A stretch of 33,458 nt of DNA from a bacterium. Its GTDB lineage: Bacteria > Zhuqueibacterota > QNDG01. Positions 24,910 to 26,450 of the stretch are shown here, in pieces. The stretch covers positions 1-33,458 of the forward strand of contig JAGGVB010000200.1 of the NCBI GenBank assembly GCA_021158245.1, written 5' to 3'. The first letter of the stretch is position 1, and every line of letters starts with the position of its first letter. The notes under the pieces were generated by a model that saw only the letters and a program-made list of their open reading frames with translations, had not been told where the DNA came from and did no database searches. The position numbers and the translations under genes were made by a program.

Positions 24910-25164
24910 ATGAAATATAATGATATGTTATCAGGACGTTTTTTAAAGAGGGAAAACAGATTTACGGTTTTTGTTGATTTGAATGGCAGAACTGTTATAG
25001 CGCATATGGCAAATTCCGGACGCTTAAGGGAGCTGCTTGTTCCTGGACGGAAAGCTATAGCCCTGAAAAATGCCGTACCATGGGCCGGAAAGAAAAGCAT
25101 AAAACATGAAAATCAAAAAGCAATAACACTCTCTGCATACATTAGTCAAACAGACATAATTTAA
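24910..25164 (+). pseudogene. sfsA: N-terminal fragment of SfsA (truncated)
   Basis: The first ~50 residues match the start of SfsA, the putative sugar-fermentation-stimulation nuclease-like protein: KYNDMLSGRFLKRENRFTVF, then VIAHMANSGRLRELLVPGRKA. Normal SfsA has about 230 residues; here the frame stops after 84, and the last ~30 residues do not look like SfsA. I could not find the missing C-terminal part in other frames before the next gene. The structured non-coding element begins about 50-70 bases after the stop, so its arrival may have removed the rest. Probably non-functional. Confidence 0.72.
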
Positions 25165-25430
25165 TGATGGGTCTTTTTTTATTTTTGAAATAAAACGGAT
25201 TGATATTATTCCTTTAATTTTTTAAAGGCTACCGATTTATTTTAAAATCCTTGCACCCCCCGAAAAAACAGTTAAAGAAAGCATCATAAAATTTTATAAT
25301 TAAAAGAGTTAGTATGCATAAATAAGTTGAAAAAGGTTCTCCGGTTTGTTTTAGTATCAAGCAGAAGGATTACCGGCATCTGCAAATCTCCGTTAAAAAA
25401 ATGAAGAAAAGCGAACGCCCGGAATCAAAT

Positions 25431-25483
25431 TCTGTCTGAGTCCCGATTTAACTATATGTATAATCAGACAGAAAAATCGGGAC
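25431..25483. repeat. interleaved stems (alternative hairpins) inside the palindromic element
   Basis: TCTGTCTGA (25431-25439) is complementary to TCAGACAGA (25464-25472). The adjacent GTCCCGATTT (25440-25449) is complementary to AAATCGGGAC (25474-25483). The order A-B-A'-B' with no spacer between A and B makes the two perfect stems compete. A third partner, CGGGATTCAGACAG (25648-25661), can pair with most of A plus B. Confidence 0.6.
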
Positions 25484-25548
25484 GAGTTTATTTGATTCAG
25501 AGAGCTTTTTTACATTTTTAGGAGATTTGCAGCAGCCGGTGTTTTTTG

Positions 25549-25573
25549 GGTACTTTTTTTTAAAAAAAGTACC
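25549..25573. repeat. perfect 25-base palindrome GGTACTTTTTTT-T-AAAAAAAGTACC
   Basis: Twelve-base arms (25549-25560, 25562-25573) around a single T. It lies just right of the large central hairpin of the element. It could act as a terminator for either strand because each side ends in an A or T tract. Confidence 0.55.
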
Positions 25574-25853
25574 GCACCGCAGGTTTAGATTAACATTATT
25601 ATAAATCATTTTTCCGATTCGGACTATTATATTTTGATAAAGAGACTCGGGATTCAGACAGCCGAACTTTCTTAACGCTGCTTCGTTCCCATTTCCGAGC
25701 CGGAGATTTTTCTAATGCCGGAGTAAAAACATGCAATACAATTTTCTTAAATTTTCGGGGGGTGCCAGATTTATTTTAAAATCGGGTTGATTCATTGGCT
25801 GTCAATTGTTATTTTAAACAAACAACTGCTCATCAGATTTGGTATGAAAAGAA

Positions 25854-26450
25854 ATGAAAAGATTCCTGTATTTAGTGACATTAATTTTTATCCTGTTTGT
25901 ATCAGCAGAGTGCGAATGGCCTTTTTCAACAAGGGATCCTGAACCCCCTGTAAATAACCAGTCAGCATGGGTGATTCCTGTAAGCCCCGAAATGGTACTT
26001 TCCAACCTACAGCGTTCTGTAAAAGAAAAGAGCGTGGAATACTATATCCGATGTCTTACGGATTCGTCTTACAGTTCCAAAAATTTTAAATTTTTACCTG
26101 ACCCTGAAATATCTGCACAGTACACAGGTATATTTATAAACTGGACAAAGCAGAAAGAAGAGAGCGTCATGAGGCAAGTGTTTTCTATTGTTCCCGATGA
26201 TTCTACATGCTCTCTTGATTTTGTGCTTTCTTCAGAAGCAGTTGCATCTGAGAGTGCAATTCTCGTTGTAGATTATACTTTAAGAATCCGGCACACGGGA
26301 ACAGTATTGAAAACAAAAATTTTTAAGGGGCGATCTGAATTCTGGCTTGCACCTGATGTGAGGGGTGAATGGTCAATCTACAACTGGATTGATCACAGAA
26401 CTTCCGACAGAGAACCGTGGTCTTTATTAAAAGCAAAGCTGGGAGGATAG
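25854..26450 (+). CDS. exported protein of unknown function
   Basis: A 198-residue protein with an N-terminal signal sequence (1-18, ending near VSAEC; the lipobox is not canonical). The mature start reads WPFSTRDPEPP, then WVIPVSPEMVLSNLQ and YYIRCLTD. A C-terminal half of strands ends SEFWLAPDVRGEWSIYNWID. This pattern resembles small NTF2-like uncharacterised exported proteins in FCB-type genomes, but I cannot name a family. It ends four bases before the probable CTG start of the polysaccharide deacetylase; the GGGAGG of its last codons is that gene's ribosome site. Confidence 0.72.
   Translation: MKRFLYLVTLIFILFVSAECEWPFSTRDPEPPVNNQSAWVIPVSPEMVLSNLQRSVKEKSVEYYIRCLTDSSYSSKNFKFLPDPEISAQYTGIFINWTKQKEESVMRQVFSIVPDDSTCSLDFVLSSEAVASESAILVVDYTLRIRHTGTVLKTKIFKGRSEFWLAPDVRGEWSIYNWIDHRTSDREPWSLLKAKLGG

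Follow-up and report, generated by a model that had tools for sequence, protein, structure and literature searches.

The window analyzed here, a 33,458-nucleotide stretch of a candidate division KSB1 genome, contains a non-autonomous element (MITE) at 25250-25768, between a truncated sfsA and a function-unassigned gene. We read this element, at a probability of roughly 85%, as a MITE of a Tn5-like insertion sequence (IS) of the IS4 kind, inserted just upstream of a promoter whose -35/-10 core is left intact. The features of the locus are given below; A is the MITE family, B is a separate, nested repeat family, and G001 is a congener (QNDG01000008.1, candidate division KSB1, isolate B43_G9).

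24910-25164, + strand: truncated sfsA upstream of the element, SfsA_N only; a full-length orthologue of 229 aa is found in L107 (G001)
25235-25249, no strand: left copy of the target duplication, ATTTATTTTAAAATC, an exact repeat of 25769-25783; with the G included it starts at 25234 and measures 16 bp
25250-25266, + strand: left terminal inverted repeat, CTTGCACCCCCCGAAAA; 16/17 pairing with 25752-25768, and the same end on the G001 IS
25250-25356 (107 bp), + strand: left arm, derived from the parent IS leader; IS positions 1-108 match at 76% identity, E = 5e-17
25372-25580, + strand: repeat B, a long imperfect hairpin (arms 25372-25391 and 25521-25540) with a small hairpin at 25549-25573; stand-alone copies in the same genome, arms co-vary
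25614-25729, - strand: part of a second B-type repeat, reversed; matches B-type copies L008, L043, L046 and L061
25686-25768, + strand: right arm of MITE family A, common to copies L008, L017, L018, L059 and L062
25752-25768, - strand: right terminal inverted repeat, TTTTCGGGGGGTGCCAG (CTGGCACCCCCCGAAAA on the - strand), identified by pairing with the left end and by the genome scan for the end motif
25769-25783, no strand: right copy of the target duplication, being the original sequence upstream of the promoter; adjoins the promoter conserved at the G001 empty site
25787-25792, + strand: TTGATT, the -35 box for the downstream gene, separated from the duplication by 3 bp; promoter aligned in G001
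25810-25815, + strand: -10 box TATTTT, at a spacing of 17
25854-26450, + strand: function-unassigned downstream gene whose promoter is faced by the element; orthologue in L107

Element ends, target duplication and empty site

The direct repeats, described in the sequence-only reading as 16 bases at 25234-25249 and 25768-25783, are both exact (GATTTATTTTAAAATC). Because the G at 25768 is common to the repeat and to the end of the element, the duplication is best counted as 15 bp beside an element with a terminal C...G. Inverted ends had been described as well, with a length of 14 bases; they are present, but measure 17 bp, of which 16 pair. Within the element the 18/20 match between the 20-base arms (25372-25391 and 25521-25540) was reproduced, and further arm pairs (25440-25458 with 25465-25483, and 25549-25560 with 25562-25573) are real. 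They do not make up a single nested palindrome, as had been supposed; since the further pairs belong to a different, inserted repeat, the element is instead a mosaic. The region is indeed gene-free, with no annotated-type protein gene and no transposase gene in the element.

The order of genes around the element is the same in G001, which has a 386-aa gene, a full-length sfsA (229 aa), a 198-aa gene, a polysaccharide deacetylase and pdxJ. A search for an empty site had been suggested, and the orthologous G001 locus is without the element, although in this diverged species the exact empty sequence has diverged too. Window and G001 can be aligned over the promoter of the 198-aa gene (window 25777-25817, E = 1.7e-6), and the right copy of the direct repeat is taken as the original and the left copy as the duplicate. 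The distance from the element end to the -35 box is 18 bp. Other family A copies likewise lie beside shortened genes, for example a PHP-domain-like gene at C228.

Parent insertion sequence and nested repeats

G001 has an IS that shares this left end and leader; a transposase gene with one early stop comes next. The right end of this parent IS lies off the contig; the right end of the window element matches the terminal repeat of the G001 IS. A near-identical IS left end (96%) is located at the end of contig C77 in the window's own genome. Additionally, copy C68 is a plain internal-deletion derivative in which 110 bp of transposase gene sequence are left (82% identity). The shared leader, the shared ends and C68 together identify the window element as a MITE of the G001-type IS family. 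At the level of sequence, the alignments thus show 25250-25768 to be an internally deleted relative of the IS into which other palindromic repeats have been inserted. The proposal that this is a mobile element without a transposase, inserted with duplication of its target, is borne out by the multiple copies, by a parent IS with the same ends and by the empty site in the congener, while the contrary outcome named beforehand (a single copy, no co-variation and no empty site) was examined and did not occur.

A search of the same genome returned 65 matches to parts of the stretch. With up to 3 mismatches allowed, the genome contains 11+11 instances of the 17-bp end motif, compared to 1+0 for a reversed-pattern control. 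At up to 2 mismatches there are ~16 occurrences in the own genome, two with zero mismatches in the congener, and a background level in other genomes. We rejected a free-standing regulatory motif as the identity of this sequence, since it is at background elsewhere and its close matches in the own genome are nearly all element ends. Family A is defined by the ends plus the arms (left arm, query 51-170; right arm, query ~487-569). For C161 and C68 both ends are present and the duplication is not readable. The material is metagenome-assembled, and contig ends often fall inside repeats. An origin of the palindromes from REP/RAYT (Y1 transposase) systems was also rejected, as the own genome holds one short, decayed Y1_Tnp fragment which scores below cut-off.

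Repeat B is a family separate from A, with many stand-alone copies in the own genome and matches in other genomes of the order; loci with B, besides the window, are L002-L005, L007, L009-L012, L043, L046, L021 and L028. Across 14 copies, 97.2% of the cells in the arms pair, and double-sided changes are found in 74 cells, versus 25 in shuffles and 3-13 in slid controls. In these mostly Watson-Crick pairs the + strand has 24 G-T cells versus 3 A-C cells, and it folds better than the reverse. Given this co-variation and strand bias, B seems to be maintained in the form of a single-stranded hairpin, either as RNA or as transposon DNA. B also occurs mid-way in another dispersed repeat, with ends like GGGTAATGTCC ... 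ATTACCCATGCATTTCAACATA (L002, L003, L004, L007 and L011), so more than one repeat family has B nested in it. A third palindromic repeat (GTCATTCCCGCATG...GCGGGAATCCAGG ... ATGACAGG) was seen in or beside A and B copies (L050 at C161, L006 at C64, L005 and L065).

These properties of B bear on the possibility that the element is chiefly an RNA gene or a large structured RNA whose mobility is incidental, which we consider very improbable. The whole element does fold with a z-score of -8.3 (versus 100 dinucleotide shuffles), and the co-varying arms with one favored strand agree with such a role. However, the co-variation sits in B, which exists independently, and other A copies are without a complete B (C228 and C122) or have other palindromes at the place held by B in the window element (C161 and C181). 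Moreover, transposition explains the ends, the duplication and the parent IS. A search of Rfam yielded nothing convincing in the element, even at a relaxed threshold, the only gathering-score match in the window being a tRNA elsewhere; with no matching Rfam family, a known structured RNA was ruled out as the identity of the element. The folded RNA put forward in the sequence-only reading therefore survives for nested repeat B, with its co-varying arms and wobble pairs on one strand, and not for the element overall.

Target choice at promoters

To describe the insertion sites, flanks were read outward from the terminal base of every element, with the ends set by the inverted repeats and partly by eye. 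An exact TTGACA is located 11-21 bp outside the ends in 15 of 53 flanks, compared to 0.1 on average in windows of equal size at greater distances and 0.21 in shuffles, where the 11-21 bp offset was set after the first cases had been seen and some copies may share ancestry. With the relaxed motif TTGA[CT][AT], the same interval gives 25 matches versus 1.9. The distance of the -35 box from the ends is 11-21 bp with a mode of 17, and between 30 and 140 bp the matches are close to background. In 18 of 25 cases the -35 box is followed by a -10 box, versus 24% of control sites. Counted by insertion, 31 of 38 have a -35-like TTG[AC][ACT]N at 8-23 bp from at least one available end, and the other 7 have no -35-like box at available ends. 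The L155 IS copy has no -35 box. The same targeting is seen in sibling MITE copies and in related ISs of several phyla, and the promoter-facing end in most of the ISs is the right one (about 13 right and 3 left, by our own count). In contrast, none of 29 flanks of repeat B displays the -35 spacing pattern.

In all cases with a readable duplication, the order is element, duplication, 3 bp and -35 box:

Window element: duplication of 15 bp, then GGG-TTGATT
L159: duplication of 18 bp, then AAC-TTGACA
L176: duplication of 11 bp, then GGG-TTGACA
L177: duplication of 8 bp, then GTA-TTGACA
L154 and L179: duplications of 10 and 9 bp, which fit the 3-bp rule if the element begins with C

The length of the duplication ranges from 8 to 18 bp between elements, which is unusual for one transposase family. 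The L177 duplication is secure, because the flanks joined with one duplication copy give an open reading frame across the site. This insertion lies in a coding gene and faces a TTGACA without a -10 box. We rejected it as proof that a -35 box suffices, since its other end has a promoter-like TTGAAA-17-TATACC at 14 bp; with a -35-like box facing both ends, L177 is ambiguous.

A MITE of the IS could also come to lie at promoters through selection only, if genic insertions are lost and intergenic ones survive anywhere. Nearly all copies are indeed intergenic, and selection against gene disruption is general. Such selection would not fix a distance, however, and the matches are concentrated in the narrow interval described above, the edge of the duplication lies 3 bp before the -35 box in every readable case, and repeat B, which is intergenic in the same genome, is without such spacing. 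We therefore regard selection alone as improbable. That the promoter is part of the element, which would then spread as a mobile promoter cassette and bring the constant spacing with it, is hardly credible. Promoters do stand at a similar spacing beyond almost all right ends, but the spacer and promoter sequences differ between copies, a direct repeat separates the end from the promoter, and the window promoter is conserved at the G001 empty site.

Transposase, proposed mechanism and known systems

Pfam assigns the transposase of the IS family to DDE_Tnp_1. The NCBIfam models for IS4 and IS701 gave matches far below cut-off (best IS4 match 53 bits, cut-off 160), and in this NCBIfam search of the transposases no curated IS-family or IS4-subgroup model reached its cut-off; the model matches included no IS256, ISLre2 or ISKra4 (p-MULT) model. 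Both by sequence and by predicted fold, the best solved relative is the Tn5 transposase. The predicted fold (pLDDT 86) is Tn5-like, with a Foldseek E of 1e-14 over nearly the whole chain. Additionally, D102-D188-E312 and YxxRxxxExxxxxxK are conserved (alignment A2), in agreement with the IS4 patterns D(60-110)D(100-150)E and Y(2)R(3)E(6)K. Homologues are scarce. Scanning 84,980 species with a pattern yielded 12 loci, distributed over KSB1, Bacteroidales, Neomarinimicrobiota, Mcinerneyibacteriota, Armatimonadota, Cloacimonadota and Zixibacteria, and homologues are present in further genomes too. Plasmid or viral spread of the IS was considered and rejected, as we found no match in plasmids or IMG/VR and one weak match in a phage collection.

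Several of the ISs have other features. In L141 (1111-1180), L147, L152, L154, L155, L156 and L157 an inverted repeat joins the leader to the ribosome-binding site of the transposase (e.g. AAGGTTCTCC ... GGAGAACCTT), and the -10 box is enclosed by its arms; such an arrangement could silence transcripts that read through into the IS from outside. At L179 (G335:C699), two copies of the IS family apparently stand in tandem at the same promoter with one duplication copy between them. In L155 (Neomarinimicrobiota JADFPG010000162.1), a CRISPR-like array with repeat GTCTAACAGACCATTCCATTAAACCAAGGATTGAAAC lies close to the IS, from about 3430 on.

For a MITE placed upstream of an existing promoter, we propose that the IS transposase would recognize the C-tract ends and move the element in trans, probably by cut-and-paste, as its predicted fold suggests. 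It would join the element just upstream of the promoter, the first joint lying 3 bp ahead of the -35 box and the second another 8-18 bp upstream of the first. Such joining would duplicate the stretch above the promoter and spare the -35/-10 core, in keeping with the positions observed. Since one joint is fixed relative to the -35 box and the other varies, we infer that the transposase reads either the -35 element or bound sigma/RNA polymerase. The targeting signal would accordingly be the -35 sequence itself or the bound RNA polymerase/sigma, and a position just above the -35 box fits direct reading and capture through the polymerase alike. An insertion that preserves the core promoter and duplicates the sequence above it should have mild effects on the host, and the likely benefit would be a safe site where the neighboring promoter is left intact. 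Overall, we think it fairly likely that the family is an undescribed Tn5-fold (IS4-type) clade of several mostly uncultivated phyla, in which -35-anchored insertion, by either form of reading, evolved independently.

The closest precedent for this habit is of the Mutator type. The TnGBS ICEs with ISLre2 (p-MULT 3), and ISKra4 (p-MULT 4), belong to the Mutator superfamily, make duplications of 8-9 bp and insert upstream of sigma-A promoters, at 15-17 bp from the -35 box (13-17 bp in a wider survey); the TnGBS authors proposed target capture through bound sigma/RNA polymerase (PMC3942029). Like these elements, the present family keeps a near-fixed distance upstream of the -35 box, often has its right end facing the promoter and has inverted ends with a terminal C; it differs in its IS4/Tn5-like transposase, its 8-18 bp duplications and its hosts. 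Given the different transposase superfamily and the longer, variable duplications, the present family works like p-MULT 3 and 4 and is not a member of either.

The IS4 family is described in the text of its review as having a D-D-E triad, Y(2)R(3)E(6)K and duplications of 7-13 bp (PMC2266710). The present ISs resemble that family, including Tn5 and Tn10, in their D-D-E spacings, YREK, single-ORF transposase of ~400 aa and Tn5-like predicted fold. In contrast, their C-tract ends differ from the tabulated subgroup ends, and while some relatives have duplications of 8, 9, 10 or 11 bp, others reach 15 and 18 bp, beyond the 7-13 bp range that the review text gives. The review text reports strong target-arm specificity in some IS4-subgroup elements (PMC2266710), and an earlier hint of the same targeting habit may exist among IS4-subgroup elements; the running text of the review describes no -35-anchored targets. 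Long direct repeats of variable length are also reported for the IS4-related IS1634 and IS1549 (cited in PMC2266710), a likeness to the present family; in those elements, however, the repeats range from 8 to 514 bp and YREK is absent, and their models gave weak matches for 4 of 8 present transposases. The yeast retrotransposons Ty1 and Ty3 likewise integrate close upstream of transcribed genes, which serves them as a safe site; the likeness is an analogy only, since these are eukaryotic LTR retroelements guided by the RNA polymerase III machinery (PMC5911963).

Our literature searches turned up no -35-targeting IS4-type element. What appears to be new is promoter-upstream insertion in an IS4/Tn5-type lineage with longer, variable duplications, the habit itself being known from the Mutator superfamily. 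If true, a safe-site strategy would have evolved convergently in another transposase lineage, one that follows a sharper rule with respect to the -35 box, and there would be a second, Tn5-like system for asking whether promoters are read directly or via RNA polymerase. Promoter-upstream targeting helps explain the pile-up of such repeats just upstream of genes in these genomes, where a near-fixed distance before promoters appears to allow the elements to spread without breaking them.
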